Part shown: positions 1 through 48,836 of the stretch, piece after piece
Layout: each line of letters begins with the position of its first letter
Numbering within the stretch: the first letter of the stretch is position 1
Assembly (NCBI GenBank): GCA_028712075.1
Contig: JAQTQX010000004.1
Coordinates: 1-64,000 of the forward strand
DNA: 64,000 nt
Reading direction: 5' to 3'
Source: Desulfuromonadaceae bacterium
GTDB taxonomy: Bacteria > Desulfobacterota > Desulfuromonadia > Geobacterales > Pseudopelobacteraceae
Position numbers and translations under genes: made by a program
The notes under the pieces: generated by a model
What the model saw: the letters and a program-made list of their open reading frames with translations, nothing else
Told to the model about the DNA's origin: nothing
Databases searched by the model: none

Positions 1-1860
1 CCTCCCGCACTCGGGGCAGTGGCGCTTTCCGTGATGAGATAGCCGGTAACACCAACCGCATCGCTGGCAGCAAGGCCGGAGACCGGTACCGTTAATGAAG
101 CCGCAGTAGCGGGAAGGCTGAAACTGGTGACAGTTGGTGCAACAGCGTCCGGGAGTGTGATCGTGACTGCAGCCGAGCGGGCGGAGGATACGTTGCCGGC
201 GGCATCTTTCGCCCAGGCGTAGGCGGTTTTGGCGCCGGCTGAGCTAAAGGTGTAGCTCGTCGGTGCAGTGGCGCTCCAGCCGGAGGCGGAGGCGCTCGGA
301 GCTGATGCGCTTTCCGTAATAAGGTAGCCGGTGACACCGACTGCATCGCTGGCGGCAAGGCCGGAGACCGATACCGTCAGAGAGGTCGCAGTGGCAGGCA
401 GGCTGAAGCTGGTGACCGCAGGGGCAACGGCATCAGCGAGTGTGATGGTGACACTTGCCGAGCGGGCAGATGAGACGTTGCCGGCGGCGTCTTTGGCCCA
501 GGCGTACGCGGTTTTGACGCCGGCTGAGCTAAAGGTGTAGCTCGTCGGTGCGCCGGCGCTCCAGCCGGAAGCGGTGGCGCTCGGAGCTGATGCGCTTTCG
601 GTAATGAGATAACCGGTGACACCGACTGCATCGCTGGCGGCAAGGCCGTAGACCGGCACCGTCAGTGAGGTCGCAGTGGCAGGCAGGCTAAAGCTGGCCA
701 CTGCGGGGGCGATTACGTCAGGCAACGTAATGGTGACACTTGCCGAGCGGACAGAGGAGACGTTGCCGGCTGCGTCTTTGGCCCAGGCGTACGCGGTCTT
801 CGCACCGGCACTGGAAAAAGTAAAGCTTGTTGGTGCAGTGGCGCTCCAGCCGGAAGCCGAGGCGCTCGGAGTACTGGCTCCCTCGCTGATGAAATAACCG
901 GTGACGCCGACAGAATCAGTGGCAGCGAAGCCGGAGACCGGCACCGTCAGCGAAGTCGCTGCTACCGGAAAGCTGAAGCTGGTCACTGCGGGGGCGATTA
1001 CGTCAGGCAGCGTGATGGTGACGGAAGAGGAGCGGCTTGATGAAACATTGCCGGCAGCGTCTTTGGCCCAGGCGTACGCAGTCTTCACTCCGGCACTGGC
1101 AAAGGTGAAGCTGGCCGGTGCGCTGGCGCTCCAGCCGGCGGCTCCCGCACTCGGGGCAGTGGCGCTTTCCGTGATGAGATAGCCGGTAACACCAACCGCA
1201 TCGCTGGCAGCAAGGCCGGAGACCGGTACCGTTAATGAAGCCGCAGTAGCGGGAAGACTGAAACTGCTGACCGTTGGTGCAACAGCGTCCGGGAGTGTGA
1301 TCGTGACTGCAGCCGAACGGCTTGATGAAACGTTGCCGGCAGCATCTTTCGCCCAGGCATAGACGGTTTTGGCTCCCGCAGTGGCAAAGGTGTAACTGGT
1401 TGGTGCAGTGGCGCTCCAGCCGGATGCGGAGGCGCTCGGGGCAGAGGCACTTTCCGTAATGAGATAGCCGGTGACGCCGACAGCGTCACTGGCAGACAAC
1501 CCGTAAACCGGGATGGTCAATGCGGTTGCAGTGACAGGAATGCTGAAACCGGTGACTGCAGGTGCAGTGATATCGGGGAGCGTAATGGTGATCGAAGCCA
1601 CACGACCTGATGAGACATTTCCGGCGGCGTCTTTCGCCCAGGCGTAGGCGGTTTTCACTCCGGCACTGGCAAAGGTGAAGCTGGCTGGTGCGCTGGCGCT
1701 CCAGCCGGCAGCTCCCGCGCTCGGGGTGCTGGCGCTTTCCGTGACAAGATAGCCGGTAACGCCGACAGCGTCTGTAGCGGCAAGGCCGGAGACCGGTACC
1801 GTCAGCGAAGTTGCCGTGGCGGGGAGACTGAAGCTGATGACCGCCGGGGCAACGGCATCG
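1..1860 (-). repeat. 285-bp tandem coding repeats (about 6.5 units in window)
   Basis: The landmark (a/g)ccggt recurs at 41, 326, 611, 896, 1181, 1466 and 1751, exactly 285 bp (95 codons) apart. Each unit encodes an Ig-like module with the core TAYAWAKDAAGNVSS and the boundary VGVTGYL(I/V)TES. Units starting near 1 and near 1141 are almost identical over about 230 bp, which suggests recent unit duplication or gene conversion. The array continues left of the window. Confidence 0.95.
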
Positions 1861-3308
1861 GCAACCACATTATTTACCGTCACGGTCACTGACGACGATT
1901 GCGTTGAATTACCGGCATTGTCAAAAGCCCAGGCGTTTATCGTATACGTACCATTACTGACAGTTCTCGTATCCCAGCTGAAATTATACGGAGAAACGTT
2001 GGTAGCGTAGAGAAGCACACCGTTGCCGTAAAATTCGACTCTGGACACACTTACATTGTCACTCGCTCCGGCACTGATCGTGGCAGTTCCGCTCAGAACG
2101 GCGTTGTTTACCGGCGATGTCATGGCAACCGTCGGAGGAATGCTGTCATTTACAACCGTCACGGAGCGGCTCGACTGACTGACGTTGCCGGCCGCATCAT
2201 ACGCCTTGGCCATCAGCGTATAGGCACCGGGCGTTACTGATGACGTATCCCATGAGTAGAAATATGGCGCACTGGTCTCTGACGCTTTCAGTTGGTCATT
2301 GATAAAAAATTCAACCTTGGTGACGCCTACATTGTCAGCGGCGTCGACATTGATCGAAACAGCGCCGCTGACATTGACACCTGCGGATGGGGAGGTAATG
2401 TCAACCGTGGGAGGGGCCTGTTCCTCAATGGTCAGCGAATTTGAAAACAAACTCTCAATTCCGGCGTTATTGTATGCAGTGACCGCAAAGGTGTAGGTAA
2501 TACCGGGGTCAAGGTCGTCAATAGTTGCCGTGGTCTGATTAATGACATCCAGCGGTGTAGTACCTTCAAGTATCGTGGCTCCGGCGTTATGATACACGCG
2601 GTAACCTGCCACGTCAGATTCACTGTTCGCATTCCAGTGGAGCGAAACGCTGGAAGCCATGGCTGGAGCACTAAGGCTGAGTGAAAGTATCGCTGCAAGC
2701 ACTGATTTGACCAGCATCTTCTGAAGACGGAAACCGCTTTTGAGCTGGTCCGGCTGGACATACCCCTCTTCAAGAAGTACTTCACCGATTTTTTTGTGGG
2801 AAAATCTCTGTTTATGGAGTGCATCTTCCAACTGATCACGGGAGATATTTCCCGTGGCGATAAGCAGCTCACCAAGTCGCAATGGGCTGTATGTGGAGGT
2901 ATTGCTCTGGTTCTGCTGAAATTCGAGCAGCGCCGCAAGTTGGGGCTCCGTCAGCATGCCGAGGCGGGTAAACACATCGCCTAACCGTTCGCCGGTCCAT
3001 TTCTGCTCGGCAATGGCCCGATCAAGCTGCTCGCCGGTTATGCGCCCGGACTGAACCAGCAGGGCACCCAGCAACTGACGTTCACCGGCAGCAATCTTGA
3101 CGGCATCTCCAACAGTAGAAAGATGCTCCTGAACCTTCAGGGGAGCATCAATATCCTGTTCCTTGAGCACCCCCATCCGCACCAGAACCTGGCCAAGAAG
3201 TTCCTTGACCAGTTTTTGCTCTTCAAAAGCCAGATCAAGTTCCTTTTTGGAGATGAAACCCCCATCCAGAAATATCTGACCGATACGATGCCGTACGCTG
3301 TTTGCCAT
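1..3308 (-). CDS. Giant surface protein: three MshEN domains, internal signal sequence, Ig-like repeats (C-terminus beyond window)
   Basis: I translated this by hand; the ORF track omits it because it runs off the left edge. It is open for 1102 codons from ATG at 3308. Residues 8-196 hold six 24-residue motifs of the form (R/L/K)xGxx..xxG..xxxxLxxx.xxQ, at 8-31/37-60, 79-102/108-131 and 144-167/173-196. Each pair has a 5-residue spacer, which is the layout of the c-di-GMP-binding MshEN domain. Residue 198 is Met and opens a classic signal peptide (MLVKSVLAAILSLSLS, then APAMA/SS). After that come a fibronectin III-like domain (about 221-300), two Big_7-like Ig domains (about 303-490) and 95-residue Ig-like repeats up to the edge. 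The N-terminus should be cytoplasmic and the rest exported. An internal start at 2717 would give a plain secreted protein, but no Shine-Dalgarno is seen there. A sigma-70-like promoter precedes the 3308 start. Confidence 0.85.
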   Translation of the reverse strand, partial: MANSVRHRIGQIFLDGGFISKKELDLAFEEQKLVKELLGQVLVRMGVLKEQDIDAPLKVQEHLSTVGDAVKIAAGERQLLGALLVQSGRITGEQLDRAIAEQKWTGERLGDVFTRLGMLTEPQLAALLEFQQNQSNTSTYSPLRLGELLIATGNISRDQLEDALHKQRFSHKKIGEVLLEEGYVQPDQLKSGFRLQKMLVKSVLAAILSLSLSAPAMASSVSLHWNANSESDVAGYRVYHNAGATILEGTTPLDVINQTTATIDDLDPGITYTFAVTAYNNAGIESLFSNSLTIEEQAPPTVDITSPSAGVNVSGAVSINVDAADNVGVTKVEFFINDQLKASETSAPYFYSWDTSSVTPGAYTLMAKAYDAAGNVSQSSRSVTVVNDSIPPTVAMTSPVNNAVLSGTATISAGASDNVSVSRVEFYGNGVLLYATNVSPYNFSWDTRTVSNGTYTINAWAFDNAGNSTQSSSVTVTVNNVVADAVAPAVISFSLPATATSLTVPVSGLAATDAVGVTGYLVTESASTPSAGAAGWSASAPASFTFASAGVKTAYAWAKDAAGNVSSGRVASITITLPDITAPAVTGFSIPVTATALTIPVYGLSASDAVGVTGYLITESASAPSASASGWSATAPTSYTFATAGAKTVYAWAKDAAGNVSSSRSAAVTITLPDAVAPTVSSFSLPATAASLTVPVSGLAASDAVGVTGYLITESATAPSAGAAGWSASAPASFTFASAGVKTAYAWAKDAAGNVSSSRSSSVTITLPDVIAPAVTSFSFPVAATSLTVPVSGFAATDSVGVTGYFISEGASTPSASASGWSATAPTSFTFSSAGAKTAYAWAKDAAGNVSSVRSASVTITLPDVIAPAVASFSLPATATSLTVPVYGLAASDAVGVTGYLITESASAPSATASGWSAGAPTSYTFSSAGVKTAYAWAKDAAGNVSSARSASVTITLADAVAPAVTSFSLPATATSLTVSVSGLAASDAVGVTGYLITESASAPSASASGWSATAPTSYTFSSAGAKTAYAWAKDAAGNVSSARSAAVTITLPDAVAPTVTSFSLPATAASLTVPVSGLAASDAVGVTGYLITESATAPSAG

Positions 3309-3367
3309 GACCGCACCCCATACCTGAGCCGTGGTGGACTATCTATCTATTCTACTCAATCGGGCTC

Positions 3368-5906: not shown

Positions 5907-6659
5907 TTAGGCGTTTTTGCCCATGCGGCGTTTGCCGAAAACTGCAAGACCGAGCATACCCAATCCAAGCAATGCAATCGTGCCGGGCTCAGGAACCGGA
6001 ACCTCTTGATACACAACATCATTAGCACATGTTACTGCATAACCGATAATAAAGTCAGAACCAAAAGTCAAAGCACTTTGGTAGGCAGCAAAGTCAAAAG
6101 TAATGGCTGAGTTAGTCGATGTATACATAACATCCCCAATATCAGTGCTCCGACCAAAAGCTGATTCCAGAAGACCGACAGGGAGACCGGAGCGGATATT
6201 ATAATTGGCTGAACCATCAGTATTGCCACTATTAAACGGATTATAGCTGGAAAGCGCATACGTATCTGACGCATGGATAGCAATAGGGGCTGCGAACGAG
6301 TAAAGATCAAGGCTAAGGGGAGTTGATGTTTCCAAGGTATTACCCAAACCGCGTACAACGTAATCCCACGTCTGGTCAGCATTAGCATCAATGAACAGAT
6401 CACCGGAATAGACAGAATCCAGATGGGCAGCAATGCCGGCTCCCTTGAATTGTATCTGTTTCAGCGTGTAGTCATCCATTGTTACCGACGTTGAAGTAAT
6501 GCTCGGTGTACCCAGCGGATCACTTGCATTGTTCGCAGTTGCGGTCCACGTAGCCCAGTTTAAAGCCTTATCGGCGTAATCTGTGACCGTTGTTGCCTGT
6601 GCGATTTGACTAAAACCCATTGCTGCAATAAAACCAACTGCCAGTGCTGTTCTTTTCAT
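5907..6659 (-). CDS. PEP-CTERM sorting domain protein, 250 aa
   Basis: An exported protein with an N-terminal signal peptide (MKRTALAVGFIAAMGFSQ, then IAQA/TT). Its C-terminus is a complete PEP-CTERM tripartite signal: VPEPGTIALL, a hydrophobic helix, and the basic tail GKRRMGKNA. Such proteins are substrates of exosortase, and XrtA lies at 34.6-35.4 kb in the same window. The middle is rich in Ser, Thr, Asn and Asp and has no catalytic motif that I recognise, as expected for a matrix or surface protein. A strong terminator follows. Upstream on the minus strand a partial sigma-54-like element (TTGGCATGGAATGTGTA, about 6747-6763) lacks the -12 GC, so that promoter is doubtful. The gene stands alone. 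Confidence 0.92.
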   Translation of the reverse strand: MKRTALAVGFIAAMGFSQIAQATTVTDYADKALNWATWTATANNASDPLGTPSITSTSVTMDDYTLKQIQFKGAGIAAHLDSVYSGDLFIDANADQTWDYVVRGLGNTLETSTPLSLDLYSFAAPIAIHASDTYALSSYNPFNSGNTDGSANYNIRSGLPVGLLESAFGRSTDIGDVMYTSTNSAITFDFAAYQSALTFGSDFIIGYAVTCANDVVYQEVPVPEPGTIALLGLGMLGLAVFGKRRMGKNA

Positions 6660-7937: not shown

Positions 7938-8507
7938 TTACTCCGACAATTCAATGACTATCTTTGGCCTGAGATAGCCATCAAGCGAGCTCGGATTCGA
8001 TACTACCGTTTGATCCCAGCCCGACGCTTTAAACGTAACCGATTTTTCCAACGCCAATCGATCACTTTCCCCAATAACGGCACCAGCACGCATCACACAT
8101 GTCATACGTGCCATTTCACCCGGGCCGAAACCGGTTTGAGCCGTAGATCCGTCTGTAATCACAATCGACAACATGTTGGCAGAATAGGTGCCAAATAGTA
8201 ATGAAGGCCCGGATACAACAGCGGCAACCGCACTTCCCGGAGTCAACCCGCCCGAAATCAAGCCGTTATCAGCCGTCGTCACATCAAGAGCGGAAGGCAG
8301 CGGGGCAATCAACTGTACGCCGTTTATCCGAAATGGAAGTCGTGCCGTACTCACAAGTGAAAACGAAATAGTCGCCCTGGAGAGTGCCCCGTGCATGCCG
8401 CTCTCAGGCGCACCACCGCTGCCACAGCCACAGACAAGCGCCACTATAAAAAAAACGGTCAGATGTACGAACGTTCTCGCCACGCTGGCTCCCCTTCCTG
8501 TTACCAC
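7938..8507 (-). CDS. Lipoprotein with cohesin-like domain
   Basis: A 189-residue protein with a hydrophobic N-terminus ending in a lipobox-like ALVCGCGSGG, so probably lipid-anchored. The mature part is a single beta-rich domain of about 140 residues. Its pattern (opening ATISFSLVST, then LPFRINGVQL, then SIVITDG, then FGPGEMARMTCVM) recalls the cohesin fold, in which a late G-x-hydrophobic segment precedes the last strands. The start overlaps by 7 nt the end of the upstream gene, whose C-terminus is dockerin-like, so the two are translationally coupled and may interact. The cohesin assignment is by pattern only, and the domain could be another Ig-like fold. Confidence 0.65.
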   Translation of the reverse strand: MVTGRGASVARTFVHLTVFFIVALVCGCGSGGAPESGMHGALSRATISFSLVSTARLPFRINGVQLIAPLPSALDVTTADNGLISGGLTPGSAVAAVVSGPSLLFGTYSANMLSIVITDGSTAQTGFGPGEMARMTCVMRAGAVIGESDRLALEKSVTFKASGWDQTVVSNPSSLDGYLRPKIVIELSE

Positions 8508-9298
8508 GTCAACTGGCCAACCGATCTACGAAGAATTACAATGACATCATCAATATCTACCCTGCCGTCGGGACTCGATTGTCGGGTTATCATGTCAAGA
8601 GGTGCGACATCAAGACGAGTAAAAAGCTCCATTGTCAGAGTTTCCAGACCAAGAACGTATCTGAGTGACAAGAGAGCATCGTTAAGCGTGCTGTAGCCGG
8701 TTACGTTAAGTCGAATATCCGATGACTGCGTCATATTGCCGGCAATATCATATGCAACAGCAAATACAGAATAGCTTTTTTCCTGTATTTCTGTTGGCCT
8801 CAGGGTGAAGTCAAATGGGGCCGTTCGCAAAGTGTCGTGAAGCACACTATCAACATAAAATTCTACCCTGGCAATGCCACCGGCATCAACAGCACTGACA
8901 CTCACGACAGTATTTCCTGTGGTGGTTCCATTATTCTTCGGAGAGATAATCGAAACAACAGGGGGAATTATGTCGTAAATCACGACAACATCTGACAGGA
9001 GGCTCTCAATGCCGGCTGTATTGTAAGCCGTCGCAGCAAGAGAGTAATTCAAAGCAGGATCAAGTCCGGTAAGAGTCACCGCTGTTGCAGTATGGACATC
9101 AATTGGTGACGCCCCCTCTGCAGCCCCGACTCCAGCAAAAGGCGCATCAGCTAATCCAACCTTATAATGGATTTTATACCCCTCAAGATCCGCCTCAGAA
9201 TTCGGGGTCCAGTGAACTGAAACATCGCGTGCGAAGCACAATGAATGTGTGAGAAACAAGAAAATGCTTGCCAGTAATAACTTTAAGCCACAATTCAT
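8501..9298 (-). CDS. Secreted fibronectin III / Big_7 protein with dockerin-like C-terminus
   Basis: A 265-residue protein with a signal peptide (MNCGLKLLLASIFLFLTHSL, then CFA/RD). Residues 25-105 are fibronectin III-like (VHWTPNSEADLEGYKIHY). Residues 110-200 are a Big_7-type Ig domain with the family phrases VARVEFYVD-like and AYDIAGN. The last 60 residues contain DVAPLD and DGRVDIDDVIVILRRSVG, a dockerin-like EF-hand calcium segment followed by a helix. The fibronectin and Ig modules closely resemble residues 221-390 of the giant protein at the left edge (LHWNANSESDVAGYRVYH), so the two share ancestry. The gene overlaps the lipoprotein gene downstream. Confidence 0.82.
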   Translation of the reverse strand: MNCGLKLLLASIFLFLTHSLCFARDVSVHWTPNSEADLEGYKIHYKVGLADAPFAGVGAAEGASPIDVHTATAVTLTGLDPALNYSLAATAYNTAGIESLLSDVVVIYDIIPPVVSIISPKNNGTTTGNTVVSVSAVDAGGIARVEFYVDSVLHDTLRTAPFDFTLRPTEIQEKSYSVFAVAYDIAGNMTQSSDIRLNVTGYSTLNDALLSLRYVLGLETLTMELFTRLDVAPLDMITRQSSPDGRVDIDDVIVILRRSVGQLTW

Positions 9299-38951: not shown

Positions 38952-40241
38952 TCAAAAAACTTTCTTCACTTCCACTACCGCCTTACTGATCTGATATGAG
39001 CCGTTGCTCCTGTCCAGATCAAGCCGATTGTCGGTGTAGGTGCCGGTCAAGCCAATCGTAAGGCCGTCCTTCAGTGCGTAGTTGAACCCGGCTACTCCGG
39101 TAAGTCGATAGGGACGGTCAATGAGGGAATTGCTGACGACTTTCCATTCAAAGTGTTCACCGGTTGCCGTAAGGGCAGCGGTCAGATTTTGCAGGATTTC
39201 ATAGCGGCACATTGCAGTTACAGTTGATTTGCGCCGATCCCAACTGCCGGTTTCGGTATTGACGTACTCCGAATAGCCTCCGGATAGTCCGAGAGCTCCC
39301 CTTGCAAGTAATTTATCTATTTTCCCGGTGTAGCTGGTCTCCTTGGTTGACACCGCCAGCGGGTCTTCTGTGGTTGCTACTTTGGTTTCAAGTACAACAA
39401 CGATGCCATCGAAATCATGGCTGATTCCGGCATTCCAGAACAGATAGTGTGTTTGAGTGCCGTTATCGAAGCGCTGCCAGCTGTTGCCGATCTGGCCCGA
39501 CAGAAACGATTTGTCGGCATATTCATATCTGAATCCGCCATTGATGTCATGCTTGTCATATTTTGCGAAAAGTTGCTGATCAGTGTCTGCCGGAGATGAA
39601 TCCAGACGGGTGAAAGAGTATCCGGCGGAAAGGCTGAACCGTGAGGTTAGTTCGTGGGTCAGATCGGAAAAACCGCGCTGTTCCTGCTTGTCGATGCCAT
39701 TTGTGCCGCTGTAGCGTGTATCGGTAAAGCGATAGCCGGTTTTGAGCACACTGTCACCGCGCAGGCGCCAGAGCAGATAAGGGGAGACCGAAGCAATATT
39801 CTGTTCGGTCTGATTGAGGAAAAGGCTGCTTTCAGTTGCTGCATTGCGGGAAACATCGAGCGTTACCCTCTGGTATGTGTCACTTGCGTCAATAAACAGA
39901 AATTTGTCAATCAGTGTAATAGTGCCCTTCGCCGCCCCGGTATGGTTATATTCGTCATCACCGCTGTTTCTGGCGTAGGTTCGATATTCGAAGGTATAAA
40001 ACAGGTCCCACATCCAGAAGGGAGATGTGTAGCGGAACGTTGCTCCGGGGCTGACTCTGGTGGTGTATTCAGCGCGTTTGTCGGCGGATTGTTCATAAAT
40101 ATTGTCGGTGTATTCTTCACTGACTGACAGTGAGGGGGCAAAGGCGGTGTCCGCCGCCGCTGCAGGAAATACCGTCAGTGGGACTGCCAGTAACAGGTTC
40201 ATGCAGAGGCATGCTATCGGGAGTATGTTATTACTTTTCAT
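38952..40241 (-). CDS. Outer-membrane beta-barrel protein, PEP-CTERM system associated
   Basis: A 429-residue protein with a signal peptide ending AAAADTAF. The mature part consists of alternating amphipathic strands with aromatic girdles (WDLFYTFEYRTYAR, SGQIGNSWQRF, LTIGLTGTYTDNRLDLDRS) and ends in a terminal aromatic (EVKKVF), as in outer-membrane barrels. It matches the TIGR03016-like proteins of exosortase loci, which are candidates for the outer-membrane exit of the polysaccharide. Its ATG overlaps the ATPase stop (ATGA). Confidence 0.88.
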   Translation of the reverse strand: MKSNNILPIACLCMNLLLAVPLTVFPAAAADTAFAPSLSVSEEYTDNIYEQSADKRAEYTTRVSPGATFRYTSPFWMWDLFYTFEYRTYARNSGDDEYNHTGAAKGTITLIDKFLFIDASDTYQRVTLDVSRNAATESSLFLNQTEQNIASVSPYLLWRLRGDSVLKTGYRFTDTRYSGTNGIDKQEQRGFSDLTHELTSRFSLSAGYSFTRLDSSPADTDQQLFAKYDKHDINGGFRYEYADKSFLSGQIGNSWQRFDNGTQTHYLFWNAGISHDFDGIVVVLETKVATTEDPLAVSTKETSYTGKIDKLLARGALGLSGGYSEYVNTETGSWDRRKSTVTAMCRYEILQNLTAALTATGEHFEWKVVSNSLIDRPYRLTGVAGFNYALKDGLTIGLTGTYTDNRLDLDRSNGSYQISKAVVEVKKVF

Positions 40242-41428
40242 TTACTGTTCGGATAACTGTCACCACCAAAAACCCGGCGGACAAAACCTATTTTCGGTTC
40301 CTCAAGCGGTGTGTCTGATGGATGAATTGTGGCATTTTTCTTTAACTCTTCCAACTTTTTGTCCAGCACCTGTATGCTGGAACTGTTTTTTGCAACCTGT
40401 GCCTGCACGGATGTCTGGAACGTAACCAGTCGATCATTCTGATCTTTGAGCCCTTCATTGAGACGGTTGGTGATATTCTGCTCAACCGATTCAAGCCGGC
40501 GGCCAATGTCAACAATCATGGTATGCAGGTCAAGAGACGCCGCTGTAGCGAGTGGCGAGGCATGTTCGTCCGGTTGTGGGGAATCCTGAAGGCCGGTGCT
40601 GAGCCCCTCCATCCAGTGATAATTTTCAAAATCCAGATCGCCGATGACATCACGAACCATATCCGGACTTAATTCGGTGGTCTCCTCGGCAAAGGCCAGG
40701 AATAGCAGAAAGTCACAGATTATATTGACCAGACGTGGAATACCCCGGCTGTAACGGTATATGATATCGAGAGATTCCGGCAGAAATTGCACGGCATCAA
40801 CATTGCCGGCAACGTCAAGGCGATGGAGGATATACAGTTCCAGCTCCTCCCGGTTGAGTGCCAGCAGATGGCAGTTGATGCTGATACGCTGCCGCAGCTG
40901 GCGCAATCCCGGAGCAGCCAGGATTTCACGCAGTTCAGGCTGACCGACAAGTATGATCTGCAGCAGCTTGCTGGTGGAAGCTTCGAGGTTCGAGAGCATG
41001 CGCACCTCTTCCAGCAGCTCCGAAGAAAGGTTCTGCGCCTCATCGATAATCAGAATCGGCTGATTGCCGGCGGCATACTGAGTGATCAGAAATTCATTCA
41101 GATCACGAATCAGGGTGACTTTATCCTTACCCTGGACTGCAAGACCAAAATCATCATTAATCATTGCCAGTAATTGTTCGGAGGTTACGCGGGTGTTGAA
41201 AATTTTGGAGAGCACCACCTGTTCGTAGTGTTTTTCGAGAAGATCGCGAATCAGGGTGGTTTTCCCGGAACCGATTTCGCCGGTCAGCAGCACAAACCCT
41301 GAGCGCTCCCTGATACCGTAATCCAGATAGGTGAGTGCCTTTCTGTGTGATTTGCTCAGATAGATAAAACGGGGATCCGGAAGCAAATCAAACGGTTTGA
41401 CTGTCAGCTTGAAGAAGCTTTCATACAT
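40238..41428 (-). CDS. XrtA-associated AAA ATPase (ExeA/GspA-like)
   Basis: A 396-residue protein starting MYESFFKLTVKPFDLLPDP. Walker A is GEIGSGKTTLI and Walker B is ILIIDEAQNL, followed by LRQRISINCHLLALNREEL (sensor/arginine region). The C-terminal 130 residues contain a coiled-coil segment (IVDIGRRLESVEQNITNRL). It belongs to the TIGR03015-like ATPases found only in exosortase/exopolysaccharide loci. It may power or regulate assembly of the export complex. It lacks membrane helices. Confidence 0.93.
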   Translation of the reverse strand: MYESFFKLTVKPFDLLPDPRFIYLSKSHRKALTYLDYGIRERSGFVLLTGEIGSGKTTLIRDLLEKHYEQVVLSKIFNTRVTSEQLLAMINDDFGLAVQGKDKVTLIRDLNEFLITQYAAGNQPILIIDEAQNLSSELLEEVRMLSNLEASTSKLLQIILVGQPELREILAAPGLRQLRQRISINCHLLALNREELELYILHRLDVAGNVDAVQFLPESLDIIYRYSRGIPRLVNIICDFLLFLAFAEETTELSPDMVRDVIGDLDFENYHWMEGLSTGLQDSPQPDEHASPLATAASLDLHTMIVDIGRRLESVEQNITNRLNEGLKDQNDRLVTFQTSVQAQVAKNSSSIQVLDKKLEELKKNATIHPSDTPLEEPKIGFVRRVFGGDSYPNSK

Positions 41429-41459
41429 GCGTGCTATCCCTCATCCCTTTGCCCCGTAA

Positions 41460-42299
41460 TTATTCGGTACGGGCATAGCGTTTGTAACTGGAGTATTTTT
41501 CATCGTGGCGGTCAATATAGGTATCATTGTAAATGGTGCCCAACAACCCGCATCCTTTCAAAGCGTCCAACGCTTCCTTGACGTTTTTCAGCGACGCCAG
41601 CTGCTCTTTGACGACAAAAAGCACTCCGTCAACAAGATGTGCCAGTGTGCGGGACTCGGCAAAAGGAAGTACCGGCGGAGTATCAAAAATAATAAACCGG
41701 TCGTTATAGCGGTTCTTCATTTCTCCGATATGGCGTGCAGTCTTCTGCGACGCAAACAGCTCAACAGGATTGGGAACGTCGTGCCCGGCGGTAATTATCG
41801 AAAGCCTGCCGATACCGGTCGGTATAATCACCTCATTGATCTGGGCTTCACCGAGCAGTACATCGGAAAAGCCTTTGTTCATTGTAATGCCGAGGTAGTT
41901 ATGGATTGACGGTCTACGGAAGTCTGCATCTATCAGCAGCACGGTATGGTCATATTCCTGGGCCAGACTTATGGCCAGATTCAAGGCGGTGAGACTTTTC
42001 CCTTCATTCGGCACCGAGCTGGTCACCATCAGGGTATTCCGAAAAAAACCCTCACCCTTGGTCAGCTTCACCAGTTCGGCCTTCAGTTTTCGGTACTCCT
42101 CCGCAATCGGCGAAAATGGATCATTCAGATTAACCAGCAAAGGGTTTGACGGCACAACGATTCCCGGTTCATGCTCCGGAGTAGGCGGAATATGTTCCGT
42201 TTTGTTTATTATCTGTGATGGAGGAGTCTCGACCGGTGCAGTTCCGACAACGTGCCGCAACTGTGCAGCCTTTTCCATCGCTTTTTCAATTCTGCTCAT
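41460..42299 (-). CDS. XrtA-associated tyrosine autokinase (BY-kinase type)
   Basis: A 279-residue cytoplasmic kinase domain. Walker A is SSVPNEGKSLTALNLA, Walker A-prime is LLIDADFRRPSIHNYLG and Walker B is FIIFDTPPVLPF. The tail YSSYKRYARTE carries a tyrosine cluster suited to autophosphorylation. Like Wzc/CapB kinases it would interact with the chain-length protein encoded next to it, with a phosphorylation cycle setting polymer length. The length of 279 and lack of a membrane part match the TIGR03018-like split kinases. Confidence 0.93.
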   Translation of the reverse strand: MSRIEKAMEKAAQLRHVVGTAPVETPPSQIINKTEHIPPTPEHEPGIVVPSNPLLVNLNDPFSPIAEEYRKLKAELVKLTKGEGFFRNTLMVTSSVPNEGKSLTALNLAISLAQEYDHTVLLIDADFRRPSIHNYLGITMNKGFSDVLLGEAQINEVIIPTGIGRLSIITAGHDVPNPVELFASQKTARHIGEMKNRYNDRFIIFDTPPVLPFAESRTLAHLVDGVLFVVKEQLASLKNVKEALDALKGCGLLGTIYNDTYIDRHDEKYSSYKRYARTE

Positions 42300-42351
42300 G
42301 CATCCATCCTTTCACGGCAACCCCTTCGTAAACGACGATCATTCAAGGCAT

Positions 42352-43863
42352 TTACTTCAAGCGACCTTTCACATCCTGCACCATTCCCGTGGGATTTATC
42401 TTGTCCACCAATCGGTCAACATATGTCATACCAAGCAGTTCCATGAGCGGAAAACAGAGCAGTAGCAGAAAATAAACGCCGGCCACGGAAAAGAGGCGCA
42501 TGCTCTTTCTACGGCTTATTTCCAATACCCGTGGATCAGGAATGCTGGGGATTATGGCCAGCAGCGGCACGTTAAATTCTTTCATACTATCAACATTTTT
42601 AACTGATGTATCCATCTGGTCGAGCAGCAGCAGGAAGCCTAAGGCTCCGGCTATCCCACCAACGAAGCCCATCAGCATGATCATCAAGCGGTTGGGACTG
42701 ACCGGTTTAACTGGCAGTATAGCCGGATCAACAATACGGAAGGTTGTCGATTTATCCTGAACCTCCATCTGTTTCGATACTTCCGACTGCCCATGACGGG
42801 CAAACAGCTGGTCATAGATATCTTTTTGGTTTTTCCGCTCAAGCTCCAGTTTTTCCAAATCCGAACGTGCAGTAGGAATTTCGCGCAACAAGGCCTGATT
42901 CGACGTGACAAAGCGCCGCTGCCCCTCCTCACTGATCTTGATGGCAGCAATCTCGGACTCTATCTTGGCTAACTCCTGCGGATCAATTTCCTTGGTGACC
43001 CCGCCTGATGTCTTCATCTGATCCTTGACGGCTTCAATCTCCCCTTTAACCTTCAGCACTTCAGGATAGCTTTCCATATATTCGGAACGAAGATCCGACA
43101 GCCTCTTCTGTAGTACGTTAAGTTTTGTCTGGAGTGGATCATTGCTGATTTTCGTGATTTTGCGCATCCCTTCGAGCTGGTGACGTCTCAGTTCCAGATC
43201 ATACAGTTTTTGCTGCGCAAGACTGATTTCCTCAAAGAGCCGCCCCTCGTCTACAGCTATAATATTGCCCTTATCTCTCCTGAAATTGTTGACCGCTGTC
43301 TCTGCTTTTTCAAGTTTAGTCCTGAATGTGTCAATCTGCTCGGAAAGGAACTGGGTTGCTGCGTATGACTCGTCACGCTTCGACGAGGTGTTTTCCTCGA
43401 TATAGAGACGCACCAATGTGTTGACAAAATCTCTTGAAACACGAGGGTTTTCATCGATAAATGAGATAATGAACAGATTTTTGTCTCTCACATTGACCTT
43501 AACTCTTTGCTGCAGGCTTTTTATCAATCCCTCGCTGTCTGCACTTGTATTTTTAACAACATTGACGTCCAGACTGTCAACGACTTTGGTGAGAATCGTA
43601 CGACTGGTAATGGCATACGTCAGAACTTTGATGGTGTCTTCCATGGATGGTGTCACAGTGATGCCCTTGACCAGTTCACTGATGACATTTTTTTCGATAA
43701 AAACCGTGCTTTTTGCTTCATATTTTTTCGGAAGCAGATAACTGACCGCCACCATGATGGTCATGATCAATAACGCAAGGAACATAAACAGACCTGTGCG
43801 CCTGTTGAGCAATTGCAGGTATCTTTTGTAATCAAATTCTGAACTCTGCTGCATGAATTCCAC
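42352..43863 (-). CDS. Polysaccharide chain-length determinant (Wzz/GumC family, XrtA system)
   Basis: A 503-residue inner-membrane protein. It begins with a Wzz domain (FDYKRYLQLLNRRTGLFMFL plus helix), then a periplasmic coiled coil (about residues 165-365). The conserved PAILPVKPVSPNRLMI precedes a second helix (about 400-420), and a third lies near 460. This is the GumC/TIGR03007-like architecture. It should set polymer length and bridge to the outer-membrane export protein, with the separate kinase gene downstream controlling it. Confidence 0.92.
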   Translation of the reverse strand: MEFMQQSSEFDYKRYLQLLNRRTGLFMFLALLIMTIMVAVSYLLPKKYEAKSTVFIEKNVISELVKGITVTPSMEDTIKVLTYAITSRTILTKVVDSLDVNVVKNTSADSEGLIKSLQQRVKVNVRDKNLFIISFIDENPRVSRDFVNTLVRLYIEENTSSKRDESYAATQFLSEQIDTFRTKLEKAETAVNNFRRDKGNIIAVDEGRLFEEISLAQQKLYDLELRRHQLEGMRKITKISNDPLQTKLNVLQKRLSDLRSEYMESYPEVLKVKGEIEAVKDQMKTSGGVTKEIDPQELAKIESEIAAIKISEEGQRRFVTSNQALLREIPTARSDLEKLELERKNQKDIYDQLFARHGQSEVSKQMEVQDKSTTFRIVDPAILPVKPVSPNRLMIMLMGFVGGIAGALGFLLLLDQMDTSVKNVDSMKEFNVPLLAIIPSIPDPRVLEISRRKSMRLFSVAGVYFLLLLCFPLMELLGMTYVDRLVDKINPTGMVQDVKGRLK

Positions 43864-43881
43864 CTTATCCCGGTTAAATAA

Positions 43882-44715
43882 TCAAAAGAAACTTTCCATG
43901 ACAAGGATGTAATCACCCGCTTTTAATTGGACATTTTGGGTCAAATCGCCGTTATTCAACAGTTTTTTTGCCTTGACTGTAAGCGTGGAGTCCTTGCCGT
44001 CATTCTTTCTACGGATGACAATATCGTTCTGATCCGCATATTTCGTAAAACCACCCGCCTCAAGTATGGCCTCCATAACCGTCATTCCTTCCCGGTATTC
44101 AATCGCCTTGGAGGCGTTGACCGCACCGAGCACATATACGTTGCGGTCAAGAAGTTGCGGGACAAAAAGAGAATCACCCGATTCAATAATAATATCCTCG
44201 GCCGTGTCCCCTTTGACAAAAAGGTTATAGAAGTTTTCCTTAATTTTCTTGCCGCTCCGCAGGACATAGGCCCGCTTGTAATCGGCACTCTTTGCAGCAG
44301 GAGACGACCCGGCAGCAGGGGTGCCGAGGGAACAGAGCAACTGGAGCAGTGTTGTGCGCCTGTTGAGATCATACACTCCGGAATTGATTCCGCCGCCGAA
44401 TATGTAGACCTTGCTGTTGGTAATCTCCCTGACTGTTACAGTGACAATAGGGTTCTTGACCAACTCTTTCAATCTGACCGTCAACTGGGCCTGCAAAGCG
44501 GCCGGCGTGCTGCCGCTGGCATGAATATCGCCCAACCCCGGGACGGTTATTTTGCCGTCCGGACGAACCCTGGCAGGAAAGGACAGCTCCTTTACCCCCC
44601 AGACCGCAATGTCAAGACCATCCCCTTCACCAATAACGTAATCCCCGGCAACTGCCGCGAACGGGAGTACCATCAGCATGACAAAAGAAACCAACAGTAT
44701 TTTAATCTTATTCAT
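43882..44715 (-). CDS. Polysaccharide export protein (Wza-like)
   Basis: A 277-residue protein from ATG 44715, with GGAG nine nt upstream; the track start at 44769 is longer without support. A signal peptide (MNKIKILLVSFVMLMVLP, ending AVAG) has no lipobox Cys, unlike E. coli Wza. The PES domain is visible as YVIGEGDGLDIAVWG and VRPDGKITVPGLGDIHASG. An SLBB domain follows (YVLGAVNASKAIEYREGMTV with MEAILEAGGFT). It forms or caps the periplasmic/outer-membrane channel. Confidence 0.92.
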   Translation of the reverse strand: MNKIKILLVSFVMLMVLPFAAVAGDYVIGEGDGLDIAVWGVKELSFPARVRPDGKITVPGLGDIHASGSTPAALQAQLTVRLKELVKNPIVTVTVREITNSKVYIFGGGINSGVYDLNRRTTLLQLLCSLGTPAAGSSPAAKSADYKRAYVLRSGKKIKENFYNLFVKGDTAEDIIIESGDSLFVPQLLDRNVYVLGAVNASKAIEYREGMTVMEAILEAGGFTKYADQNDIVIRRKNDGKDSTLTVKAKKLLNNGDLTQNVQLKAGDYILVMESFF

Positions 44716-44786
44716 AATATTATCTCCACAATGAGCCAATAAGTCTTTGTATTTCCCGTTCCCCTTCAACCTTCAACCTTCTTTTT

Positions 44787-46181
44787 TCACCGTCCACCAA
44801 ATCCGAACAGCACCACCTTGATTGTCTCAAAAAATATCAGCGTGTCAAGAAAGGGGCCGAGATTTTTGATATAGTACAGGTCATAACGCAATTTTTCGAC
44901 GGCGTCCTCTACGGATGCCCCGTACGGGTATCTGACCTGCGCCCAGCCGGTTAACCCCGGTTTGATAAAATGCCGCTTCGAGTAATACGGTATGACCAGT
45001 TTCAGTTTTTCGACAAATTCCGGACGTTCCGGCCGGGGCCCGACAAAGCTCATTTCCCCTTTCAGCACGTTGATCAGCTGAGGAATTTCATCGATTCGTG
45101 AACCACGAAAAAACCTCCCCAGTGTGGTGACGCGAGGATCTTTTTTTTCCGCCCATACCGCACCGGTCGCCGCCTCAGCATCCTGGCGCATCGTTCTGAA
45201 TTTGTAGAGCATAAAGAGTTTTTCCCGGTTTCCGACCCGTTCCTGCCTGAAAAACACCGGCCCGGGAGAGTCGATTCTGATTGCCAGGGCGATGAGTGGC
45301 ATAAACGGCAGCGTCAGCAGCAGACCGATCACGGATAGGGCAATATCAATCGTCCGCTTTAAAATATGTGATACGGTCGTTCGCCGAAAACCGTCAGAAA
45401 AGATAAACCAGCTTGGGGTGATAGATTCCAGCATCAGCTTACCCTGCACAAGTTCATACAGGGTTGGTGCGTCCATCACCTGAATGCTGTTCAGTTTACA
45501 GCGGAGGACGTCTCTGAGCGGAAAGACCCCCCTTCGCTCTGTCAGCGCCACCACAATCACATCTGCCCGGGCCTGACGCACGGTATCGAGGAGATCGTCA
45601 CTGGTGCCGACAATCATATCTTGTGGCACCCCGGTATCCGCTGCAGTTTCCTGGGCGCTTTCCTGCATGTCGGCACCACACGCCGCATACCCGGCCAGCA
45701 CAAAATTTCTCCGGTCAGAAGCAATGATCTCGCCAATCCGGGCGGCCAGAACACCGGTGCCCAGCACCAGAACCCGTTGGGAAAAACGGGCGCGATCTTT
45801 CCCCGCCAGGTAGAGTGCATGCACGCAAAATTGGTACAGCACAAAAAACAGAAGGGAAAAAAACAGGACGCCGCGCCCTATGATGACATCCGGCACGAGA
45901 TAGTACACGGCTGAGAGCAGGGAAAACGACGTCACAGTGCCAAACAGAATATTGACAATAATTTCACGTTTTCGCGTGTTTTTACTCAGGTCGTAGACTT
46001 CCATCAGATGAGAGGAAAACAACACAACAGCAGTAAAAATAAGCGTTGAGTAAATTTTGACCGGCTCCAGCTGGTTCCAGCCCGTTTCAAAATAGCCGAG
46101 ACGCACGGCCATGGCGGAAAAGAACGCCGCAACCGCCAACAGAGCATCAAGAGTTATAAGAGTTGTTACATTAGACGCCAT
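44787..46181 (-). CDS. Initiating sugar-phosphate transferase (EpsB/WbaP type, PEP-CTERM system)
   Basis: A 464-residue protein. About five N-terminal helices and a central Rossmann-like domain (RVLVLGTGVLAARIGEIIA) precede the bacterial sugar transferase domain. In that domain I see FFRQERVGNREKLFMLYKFR, FRGSRIDEIPQLINVLKGEM and SFVGPRPERPEFVEKL. It should transfer a sugar-1-phosphate to undecaprenyl phosphate, the first committed step. The layout equals the TIGR03013-like transferases of exosortase loci. The donor sugar is not evident. Confidence 0.94.
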   Translation of the reverse strand: MASNVTTLITLDALLAVAAFFSAMAVRLGYFETGWNQLEPVKIYSTLIFTAVVLFSSHLMEVYDLSKNTRKREIIVNILFGTVTSFSLLSAVYYLVPDVIIGRGVLFFSLLFFVLYQFCVHALYLAGKDRARFSQRVLVLGTGVLAARIGEIIASDRRNFVLAGYAACGADMQESAQETAADTGVPQDMIVGTSDDLLDTVRQARADVIVVALTERRGVFPLRDVLRCKLNSIQVMDAPTLYELVQGKLMLESITPSWFIFSDGFRRTTVSHILKRTIDIALSVIGLLLTLPFMPLIALAIRIDSPGPVFFRQERVGNREKLFMLYKFRTMRQDAEAATGAVWAEKKDPRVTTLGRFFRGSRIDEIPQLINVLKGEMSFVGPRPERPEFVEKLKLVIPYYSKRHFIKPGLTGWAQVRYPYGASVEDAVEKLRYDLYYIKNLGPFLDTLIFFETIKVVLFGFGGR

Positions 46182-46190
46182 GTACCACCA

Positions 46191-48836
46191 TTATTTTTTT
46201 AGTGCTGCAACAGCAGCCGCAGCTTCTTTGGACTCGACAAAATCACCCAGCGTCAACGACTTTTCCAGCAGCTTCAGCGCATTAGCCTTGTCACCAGACT
46301 CTTTGTAGGCCAGGCCGAGATGATAGGCAACGGTCGGATTATTCGGCAGCAGGTTGACCGCTTTTTCCAGAACTTTTTTGGCGTCTTCAAAGCGACTATT
46401 TTTGAGCAGAGCATAGCCAAGGGTATCTACTACGCCGGCATTACCCGGTTCGCGTTTGAGTGCCGTTATTGCCATACGGAGTGCCTCTTCCTTGTTGCCA
46501 TAGCCCGAGGCGTACAGATAGGCAAGATTATTGAGCGCCGGGACGTAGCCATCTGATTTCTCCAATACGGCTCTGTACTTGGCAATCGCCTCTTTCTTTT
46601 TGCCGGCCTGATCAAGGAGCGTACCCTGTGCAAAAAGTGCCGGCACGAAATCCGGTTTTTTACGACTGGCGTCCTCATATGCACCCATGGCCTGAGCATA
46701 ATCCTTGGTTGCAACATACAGATTCCCCAGATAGACATATGCCTGGGCATTTGCTGTGTCGACGCGGATTCCGTTTTTCACTTCACTGATTGCCTTGGCA
46801 TAATCCTTCTGACTCTCATAAATCGACCCAAGAATCATATAGCCGCGCGCCGACGTCGGATATTTCTCCACTATTCTTTTCGCCTGTTCAACAGCCTTGC
46901 CGGTCTCCTTCATGGTGACGTAGGCCCCGATTTTCAGTGCCACACCAGTCTCCGGATTAATTGCCTCGACCTCTTCAAAGACCTTGATGGCATTATCAAA
47001 TTTCTTTTCACCGACGAGCACGCGCCCCTTCATTTCCAGAATCGAGACATTTTTTGCGTCAACCTTCAAAGCATCATCCAGTACCGTGAGCGCTTTTGCT
47101 GCATCACGTTTTTTCATGTAATATCCGGCCAGTGACATGAACGCATTCGGCTGTTTGGTATCCGCCGCCTTCTGATAGTATGAAAGTGCTTCGCTGTCAT
47201 TCCCCTTTATTTCATGCAACATTGCCAGACCAAGCATTGCCCGGACATTTTTCGGGTCATTACGCAACAATGCCGCGTACTCTTCAATCGCTTTATCGTA
47301 TTTTCCCGCGGCTGCATAGTAGGTAGCAAGGTTCTGATAGGAAGCGGGGAAAGCCGGATCAATCTCCTTGGCTTTTTGAATACTTTTTAGCCCTTCATTC
47401 TGCTTGTTTTGCATAAAGTAGACAGCGGCAATACTATTGTAGAGGAATGCGTCGCTTTTTTTACCGGTCAGGCCCGCCTTGAGATCCTGCAGGGCCTTGT
47501 CTGATTTTCCGGTTCTCATGTGATATGAGGCCAGCAGCAATCTGCTGTTCAGGGCATCAGGAGCAGCTTTGACTGCGGTCTCAAGCTCCGTTTCACCCTC
47601 AGCATTCTTGCCGCGACTAAAGTAAAAATACCCTTTTTTCAGATACGCATCGACGATCTTCGGGTCAATCTTTGTTGCCCGGTTAAACTCGCGCATGCCA
47701 TCTTCAAACATCCCTTTTGCCATATAGGTACTGCCGAGCAGATTGTGGGCGACCGCATCGTTGTCATCTTTTTGCAGCACCTTCTGGACTTCTGTCATCG
47801 CATCATCAACCCGTTTCTGGGCGAGCAGGATCGAGGCGGTCATCAGCCGGGCCTGACGGGAGTCGGGAACGTTATCGAGAATTTTGCGGAACTGGCTCAG
47901 TGCACTCTCCAATTCGCCGCGATTGTAATAGCAGAGACCGAGGAAATGGTACGCTTCGAGCGTTGGTGCCAGCTTGACGGAATTCTGCAGGTTGGTCAGC
48001 GCTTCTGCATAATTTTTCCGCTGATAGTAGACAAGACCCTTAAGGCGCGAACCGTCCCCCCGCTTCGGAAAGCGGCTCAACAGGTCGTCAGCGGCTTTGT
48101 CAGCCTTGTCGAGCTCTTTTTTCTCGATATAGATAAGTCCGGTTTTGTATATGGCAAGTGACTCATTCGGATTGTTTGCCATGACTGTCTGATAAATTGC
48201 CAACGCCTTGTCACTGTTGCCGGCCCGTGCTTCGATAGCCGCCAACATATAGTAGGGCCGGGTATTTTTGGGATCACTCGTGGTCAACTCCTCCAACAAG
48301 CTCTTCGCTTTTGGTTCATTGCCGGAGGCCACATACACCGCAGCAAGATCAAGCTTTGTTTTTGCCCGGGACGGGTCGGCGGCAACTGCCTGCAGCAGAT
48401 ACTTTTCGGCATCTTCATTACGCTTATTCACCGCACTGGCTATGCCGAGAATTTCAAGACCCTCTACGCTGCCGGGGTGTTTGGCGAGATACTGCTCGCC
48501 CAGCTTGAAGGCTTCATCCGCTTTTTTCAGCCCATTCAACACATTGGCAAGTTCCGGCAGCACTTCGTCCCGGGAAGGATTCTGTTTAAGTACTTTGTTG
48601 AATTCTTTTTCAGCTTGTTCAAGTTTTCCCATTTTCGTATAGCATTTAGCCAATTGAAAGCGGGCATCAAGATAGTTTTCATCCTTCTCCAGGGCATTCT
48701 TAAACAGAACCACAGCGCCACCCGGATTCGATGCTTCCAGCTGCTTGACTCCCTCGGTATATAACTGCTCTTTTGTCTTACTGCTGCATGCGGTAAAGAT
48801 AACGAGAGTTAACAACACAAGTATCGTTCTGATCAT
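46191..48836 (-). CDS. prsT: PrsT-type TPR lipoprotein (PEP-CTERM/XrtA system)
   Basis: An 881-residue protein. The lipobox is LVIFTACSSK (Cys17), so it is a lipoprotein. The remainder is about 22-24 tetratricopeptide repeats, for example AVVLFKNALEKDENYLDARF and ALSQFRKILDNVPDSRQARL. This size and lipid anchor match the TIGR02917-like PrsT proteins, thought to scaffold the exopolysaccharide assembly complex. It is the first gene of the long minus-strand run. A promoter and a palindrome lie upstream. Confidence 0.93.
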   Translation of the reverse strand: MIRTILVLLTLVIFTACSSKTKEQLYTEGVKQLEASNPGGAVVLFKNALEKDENYLDARFQLAKCYTKMGKLEQAEKEFNKVLKQNPSRDEVLPELANVLNGLKKADEAFKLGEQYLAKHPGSVEGLEILGIASAVNKRNEDAEKYLLQAVAADPSRAKTKLDLAAVYVASGNEPKAKSLLEELTTSDPKNTRPYYMLAAIEARAGNSDKALAIYQTVMANNPNESLAIYKTGLIYIEKKELDKADKAADDLLSRFPKRGDGSRLKGLVYYQRKNYAEALTNLQNSVKLAPTLEAYHFLGLCYYNRGELESALSQFRKILDNVPDSRQARLMTASILLAQKRVDDAMTEVQKVLQKDDNDAVAHNLLGSTYMAKGMFEDGMREFNRATKIDPKIVDAYLKKGYFYFSRGKNAEGETELETAVKAAPDALNSRLLLASYHMRTGKSDKALQDLKAGLTGKKSDAFLYNSIAAVYFMQNKQNEGLKSIQKAKEIDPAFPASYQNLATYYAAAGKYDKAIEEYAALLRNDPKNVRAMLGLAMLHEIKGNDSEALSYYQKAADTKQPNAFMSLAGYYMKKRDAAKALTVLDDALKVDAKNVSILEMKGRVLVGEKKFDNAIKVFEEVEAINPETGVALKIGAYVTMKETGKAVEQAKRIVEKYPTSARGYMILGSIYESQKDYAKAISEVKNGIRVDTANAQAYVYLGNLYVATKDYAQAMGAYEDASRKKPDFVPALFAQGTLLDQAGKKKEAIAKYRAVLEKSDGYVPALNNLAYLYASGYGNKEEALRMAITALKREPGNAGVVDTLGYALLKNSRFEDAKKVLEKAVNLLPNNPTVAYHLGLAYKESGDKANALKLLEKSLTLGDFVESKEAAAAVAALKK

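Follow-up and report, generated by a model that had tools for sequence, protein, structure and literature searches.

An MshEN-type module precedes an internal signal peptide in an adhesin gene

The window analyzed here, the first 64,000 nucleotides of contig JAQTQX010000004.1 (forward strand) from a Desulfuromonadaceae bacterium (assembly GCA_028712075.1), opens inside a minus-strand open reading frame (ORF) that joins a cytoplasmic-type signaling module to a surface protein. Its first 197 residues, read from an ATG and encoded by the open frame from 3308 to 2718, form a module of the MshEN type, a domain known to bind bis-(3′-5′)-cyclic dimeric guanosine monophosphate (c-di-GMP). These residues continue in frame into Met198, an internal signal peptide, and a passenger made of a fibronectin type III (FN3) domain, bacterial immunoglobulin-like (Ig) domains and tandem repeats (Table 1). 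Because the window starts at base 1 of the contig, the 3′ end of the gene is absent from it. An earlier annotation made from the sequence alone (the original prediction) had proposed this arrangement, and inspection of the ORF bears it out: Q196, K197 and M198 are contiguous, such that the module ends one residue before the Met; no stop interrupts the frame from 3308 to 2718; and the FN3 domain, the Ig-like domains and the 95-residue repeats are each recovered downstream, with the PF00041 match starting just within the signal peptide. No C-terminal ATPase domain of the MshE/PilB/GspE type is present in the ORF as far as it can be read. The Shine-Dalgarno-like element ahead of the ATG is left uncounted by the strict search used below.

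Table 1. Features of the fused gene, its surroundings in the window, and riboswitches at related loci.
Feature	Position	Strand	Remarks
Whole fused ORF	3..3308	-	ATG at 3308; 1102 codons seen; open to contig start
Shine-Dalgarno-like GGGGTG	3314..3319	-	5 nt before ATG; one G.U pair relative to GAGGTG; weak
MshEN-type pair 1 (residues 8-60)	3129..3287	-	Motif 2 without Arg
MshEN-type pair 2 (residues 79-131)	2916..3074	-	Motif 3 without Arg
MshEN-type pair 3 (residues 144-196)	2721..2879	-	R144, G146, Q167, K173, G175, Q196 kept
Internal signal peptide KMLVKSVLAAILSLSLSAPAMA (residues 197-218)	2655..2720	-	Predicted cut after A218
FN3 domain, start of passenger	2430..2678	-	Pfam PF00041, E 2.7e-10
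Bacterial Ig domain Big_7	1932..2135	-	Pfam PF17957, E 3.5e-36; better of two stretches
Tandem 95-residue repeats, OmpL47-type	22..1856	-	Period 285 bp, 6.4 copies; NF047446, E 1.7e-32
Comparison gene, same FN3/Ig passenger type	8501..9298	-	Ordinary N-terminal signal peptide; no MshEN module
XrtA/PEP-CTERM polysaccharide genes	38952-48836	-	TIGR03016 outer membrane protein, chain length determinant, EpsB-type glycosyltransferase, PrsT
c-di-GMP-I riboswitch	L051:2697-2772	-	
c-di-GMP-I riboswitch	L052:9925-10000	-	
c-di-GMP-I riboswitch	L053:9812-9886	-	
c-di-GMP-I riboswitch	L061:6236-6312	+	

The module consists of six 24-residue motifs (residues 8-31, 37-60, 79-102, 108-131, 144-167 and 173-196), which fall into three pairs with a 5-residue spacer in each and a Gln at the end of all six, as had been described. 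Published MshEN domains carry two copies of the motif RLGxx(L/V/I)(L/V/I)xxG(L/V/I)(L/V/I)xxxxLxxxLxxQ separated by a 5-residue linker (PMC5013675). The proposed position-by-position agreement with this motif stands for the terminal Gln but fails at the first position of motifs 2 and 3, where Arg or Lys is absent. Scored over 11 motif positions, motifs 1 to 6 agree at 7, 9, 8, 8, 10 and 8, respectively, and only 51 of 5000 shuffled sequences contained even one segment scoring 8 or more. The NCBIfam profile NF053729.1 ('c-di-GMP_motif, MshE-related') matches the module in three stretches (E 4.4e-44; 148 bits against a cut-off of 38), and a sequence search of the PDB returns PilF (6f8l, 4.8e-15) and MshE (5htl, 8e-7), confirming an MshEN-type identity. 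Foldseek superposes a 53-residue unit of a structural model (whose mean predicted local distance difference test score, pLDDT, is 62) onto c-di-GMP-bound MshE (5HTL) and PilF with a probability of ~1.00 and 0.7 A over 53 columns; the E of ~1 arises because the match is short. Pfam matches to DUF4388, FumaraseC_C and DUF2949 over the module are partial and vary in position among members, and were set aside as cross-matches to MshEN-type helix repeats.

The fusion is conserved and carries many passengers

Homologues of the module were sought in 141 genomes belonging to the same order. They are full-length at 52-76% identity, with a few more diverged, and nearly all lie in long open frames. Fifty-eight were read, and wider counts cover 77 loci; in nearly all of the 58, the module is followed by a hydrophobic segment and an AxA-type site. 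Of these 58 genes, 51 have a Shine-Dalgarno sequence of 4 nt or more ahead of the upstream start, whereas such a sequence is found before none of 44 internal Mets and before 14 of 146 other internal Met codons. Position 198 itself is Met in 50 of the 77 homologues and another residue in 27, where AAG, CTC, GCA and similar codons stand. Over the module and signal peptide, the nonsynonymous rate (Ka) is far below the synonymous rate (Ks) in most compared pairs, with Ks near saturation for the window gene. Translation beginning at the internal Met (2717), a case that the original prediction had raised against itself, is contradicted by the Shine-Dalgarno and comparative evidence, and a start at Met198 was rejected on the Shine-Dalgarno and codon data.

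Assignment by sequence pattern divides the passengers of the 77 loci into FN3/Ig proteins (32), beta-sandwich proteins ending in ..PGTYxWP.. (22), three-CxxCH cytochromes (9), CAP-domain proteins (6), proteins with a C-terminal FSFKMG pattern, mostly lipoproteins (6), one beta-helix protein and one without a class. A second copy of the module in the genome of the window (L070) heads a three-CxxCH cytochrome. Most of the ..PGTYxWP.. genes adjoin genes for an usher, a PapD-type chaperone and spore coat U (SCPU) subunits. Their passenger (L145:6622-7038 and relatives) is an unannotated beta-sandwich domain with a conserved ..YRF.L....PGTY.WP..S pattern, for which a confident model (pLDDT 87) gave no clear structural relative. 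At three loci, tandem c-di-GMP riboswitches (L085:7500-7856, L089:3071-3416, L095:5135-5438) closely follow the module gene and precede the spore-coat-U subunit genes of a chaperone-usher locus.

Beyond the order, a scan of named genomes placed the module in Geomonas, other Geobacteraceae, Desulfuromonadaceae, Nitrospirota, Syntrophorhabdus, Smithella, Desulfobacterales, Gallionella and Azonexus, and 14 of 395 genomes drawn evenly from the phylum gave a strong match; no match was found on plasmids. Module and signal peptide are retained together in Nitrospirota, other deltaproteobacteria and betaproteobacteria. On a tree of the modules, many branches of which are weakly supported, the seven passenger classes require 10 changes against a minimum of 6. 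No partner gene common to all module loci was found, the neighbor clusters being specific to passenger class. The survey of genomes for an MshEN-signal architecture, suggested in the original prediction, thus finds it across several phyla, and on this sequence evidence the module is a conserved leader reused on at least six types of predicted exported passenger, which goes beyond the single fusion first envisaged. In Geomonas oryzae (L103 = G037:C3, G037:C15; L147, L148), two identical modules are truncated inside pair 3 and continue into an unrelated tail, as if interrupted.

The internal signal peptide looks cleavable

In the frame translated from residue 1, the signal begins at residue 197 rather than at the N-terminus, and comprises a positive residue, a hydrophobic core and then APAMA. 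Its hydrophobicity is moderate (best 19-residue Kyte-Doolittle mean, 1.62). An AxA-like site occurs in 57 of the 58 homologues, in 48 of them exactly 22 residues past Q196, and seven relatives have a lipobox instead (e.g. LTACG, LAGCG, LAACG), implying cleavage by signal peptidase II. The passengers belong to extracytoplasmic kinds of protein, and the signal peptide looks cleavable. Since the module has no export signal of its own, the simplest layout places the N-terminus inside; this topology, together with cleavage, is probably correct.

A second gene of the window allows an internal comparison. The product of 8501-9298 is 35% identical to the fused ORF over 215 aa, in an alignment that runs from inside the signal peptide onward. 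Because this relative aligns from within its signal peptide and lacks the module, the module looks as though it had been added before a normal secretion signal.

Pair 3 is predicted to be the main c-di-GMP receptor

In each motif of an MshEN domain, the ligand is contacted by the first Arg, the Gly, Leu residues and the last Gln (Wang et al., PMC5013675). Work on PilF shows that binding can be abolished when a single motif loses its Arg; of the three PilF domains, one is non-binding (PMC12002112). In the window gene, pairs 1 and 2 each contain one motif without Arg or Lys (L37 and L79, respectively), whereas both motifs of pair 3 start with Arg or Lys and end with Gln (R144/Q167 and K173/Q196). 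The same holds across the 77 loci: pair 3 retains Arg/Lys at 144 in 75, G146 in all 77, Q167 in 76, Lys/Arg at 173 in 68, G175 in all 77 and Q196 in 76, while Leu or Met replaces the Arg of motifs 2 and 3 in most members and motif 1 is variable. Three short relatives (L106-L108) retain chiefly pair 3. The three domains originally proposed are therefore probably not three equal c-di-GMP receptors, since Arg/Lys and Gln in both motifs are near-universal only in pair 3. Pairs 1 and 2 look degenerate, and we predict that pair 3 is the main receptor; binding of c-di-GMP by the module is likely. The last contact residue of pair 3, Q196, lies one residue from the signal peptide, and the structural model joins the two by a single helix (186-213), a feature that would suit coupling between them.

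A proposed receptor in cis to a signal peptide, and its alternatives

The conserved fusion, translation from upstream, the range of passengers and the retained binding residues are best explained overall, in our judgment, by a cytoplasmic c-di-GMP receptor lying in cis to an internal signal peptide, which would control export or display of the passenger and then be cut off; we regard this account as evenly balanced between right and wrong. The c-di-GMP and matrix setting described below (riboswitches at related loci, GGDEF matches in the genome and the XrtA locus) counts in its favor. Residues 1-197 would form a receptor module of three MshEN-type four-helix bundles, lacking the C-terminal half of MshEN and joined almost without a linker to a cleavable Sec signal peptide. 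The module would remain cytoplasmic, and the signal peptide, on inserting, would take the passenger (here the FN3/Ig/repeat adhesin) outward. Cleavage by signal peptidase I (by signal peptidase II for lipoprotein members) would then release the passenger, with the module and signal peptide left behind in the inner membrane. Whether or when the adjoining signal peptide is taken up by the export machinery would depend on c-di-GMP binding by the third bundle, restricting export of matrix proteins to a suitable c-di-GMP level, most likely a high one. Gating of export in cis by c-di-GMP falls, as a claim by itself, a little short of even likelihood. More tentative is its general form, in which the receptor would turn on or off the Sec-dependent export of many unrelated proteins of the surface and periplasm and be discarded after cleavage.

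Several observations weigh against this account. The Pfam profile PF05157, against which the original prediction had proposed to check the module, gives no match at E<=1; the failure probably reflects the presence in the module of only the 53-residue c-di-GMP-binding half of a domain that the 90-position model likely covers more fully, and the more specific NF053729.1 is strongly positive. The AlphaFold2 (AF2) model is of moderate quality only, an Arg whose loss can abolish binding in PilF (PMC12002112) is missing from pairs 1 and 2, and the second motif of pair 3 has Lys rather than Arg in most members. Three approaches failed to find an RF01051 c-di-GMP-I aptamer before the window gene. Finally, a long folded cytoplasmic domain ahead of a cleaved signal peptide is unusual.

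An alternative with the same N-inside layout is that of an inside-out sensor, in which the hydrophobic segment is uncut, or its cut stub is what matters, and c-di-GMP alters the tethered passenger or a periplasmic partner after export, with no gating of export. The moderate hydrophobicity of the segment is compatible with a membrane anchor, and in the AF2 model a single helix (186-213) spans the end of pair 3 into the signal peptide. The fixed spacing of the AxA sites and the lipoboxes in seven relatives nevertheless resemble cleavage sites, and neither the usher-adjacent beta-sandwich proteins nor cell-surface adhesins would be expected to remain on the inner membrane. Since the two readings share a layout, they differ in whether cleavage occurs; we consider the sensor unlikely, although it is the strongest of the rivals.

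A lesser chance attaches to the module having become mainly a docking tag, no longer chiefly a c-di-GMP switch: through it the preprotein would be recruited to a shared partner at the inner membrane, much as the secretion ATPases of type II secretion and type IV pili use their GSPII domains. Conservation of about 70% over the whole 197 residues, non-contact surfaces and the 61-76 linker included, would suit such docking, as would the persistence of the overall sequence of pairs 1 and 2 after loss of their Arg. The near-invariance of the c-di-GMP contacts in pair 3 and the riboswitches at several loci instead point to the ligand, and no common partner gene was identified beside the loci. A docking role of the conserved surfaces could coexist with gating.

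It is very improbable that translation starts also or only at Met198, yielding an ordinary secreted adhesin with the upstream part separate or vestigial: the Met is shared by the 50 homologues noted above, but the ribosome-binding signals, the replacement of codon 198 elsewhere and purifying selection on the module all speak for the upstream start. A chance resemblance, or an assembly artefact fusing two unrelated genes, is refuted, for although the gene runs to the contig end within a repeat, the junction lies inside the contig, ~2.7 kb from that end, and the order of parts is kept in dozens of independently assembled genomes, cultured Geomonas strains included, confirming that the fusion through an internal signal peptide is real.

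Relation to known systems

MshEN domains have been described on ATPases, glycosyltransferases and other proteins (PMC5013675). The module resembles the MshEN/GSPII domains of MshE (5HTL) and PilF in its two 24-residue motifs with a 5-residue spacer and in its match to the NCBIfam c-di-GMP motif, and PilF likewise has three tandem domains of which one is non-binding (PMC12002112); it differs from both in lacking the C-terminal MshEN half and an ATPase, and in preceding the internal signal peptide of exported proteins. NCBIfam cross-matches connect it to NfrB (a glycosyltransferase) and EpsG (a chain-length kinase), which also place an MshEN-type domain on a protein of matrix-polysaccharide synthesis, but these are inner-membrane or cytoplasmic enzymes, whereas the output here would be an export leader. 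We found no description of MshEN before a signal peptide in a search of full-text literature, a search whose reach excludes most subscription papers.

The LapD/LapG/LapA system also lets c-di-GMP decide the display of a repeat adhesin, through a separate receptor, LapD, that controls a periplasmic protease; it is a functional analogue only, as here the receptor domain lies within the adhesin precursor. RsgI-type anti-sigma proteins combine a cytoplasmic regulatory domain, one uncut membrane segment and extracytoplasmic binding domains, a similar plan built from other domains, with no c-di-GMP motif and an anchor that is not cut. Known chaperone-usher subunits have ordinary N-terminal signal peptides and no cytoplasmic domain. 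The module genes of one passenger class mostly sit beside usher, chaperone and SCPU genes, as in spore coat U (archaic) operons, but their products carry the module before the internal signal peptide.

Transcription, riboswitches, enzymes, ATPases and receptors are all known targets of c-di-GMP. The present architecture suggests that bacteria may also control surface-protein export by it directly, a receptor domain within the precursor of the exported protein providing a direct route from signal to surface. That adhesins, cytochromes, lipoproteins and proteins associated with chaperone-usher systems all bear the leader suggests a solution of general use, which, if the reading is true, would amount to a reusable post-translational control of export. 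The architecture also poses a basic question, namely how the Sec machinery copes with a signal peptide placed behind 200 residues of folded, ligand-binding domain. Both triheme cytochromes and adhesins are among the passengers in Geobacter relatives, for whose extracellular electron transfer the biofilm matrix is important.

c-di-GMP and biofilm-matrix setting

The window is an XrtA/PEP-CTERM exopolysaccharide locus, and the polysaccharide genes listed in Table 1 agree with the biofilm-matrix neighborhood originally proposed. The three closest relatives (L051, L052 and L053) and L061 have a c-di-GMP-I riboswitch on the same strand as the module-adhesin gene, ~90-170 nt ahead of it. The four related genomes that were searched hold ~10-20 c-di-GMP riboswitches each, so that one within 200 nt is unlikely to arise by chance, although the loci are related rather than independent. 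The genome of the window contains 26 GGDEF matches and four c-di-GMP riboswitches, arranged as two tandem pairs elsewhere than at the module gene. The XrtA locus also encodes a short PEP-CTERM protein at 5907-6659 (minus strand).
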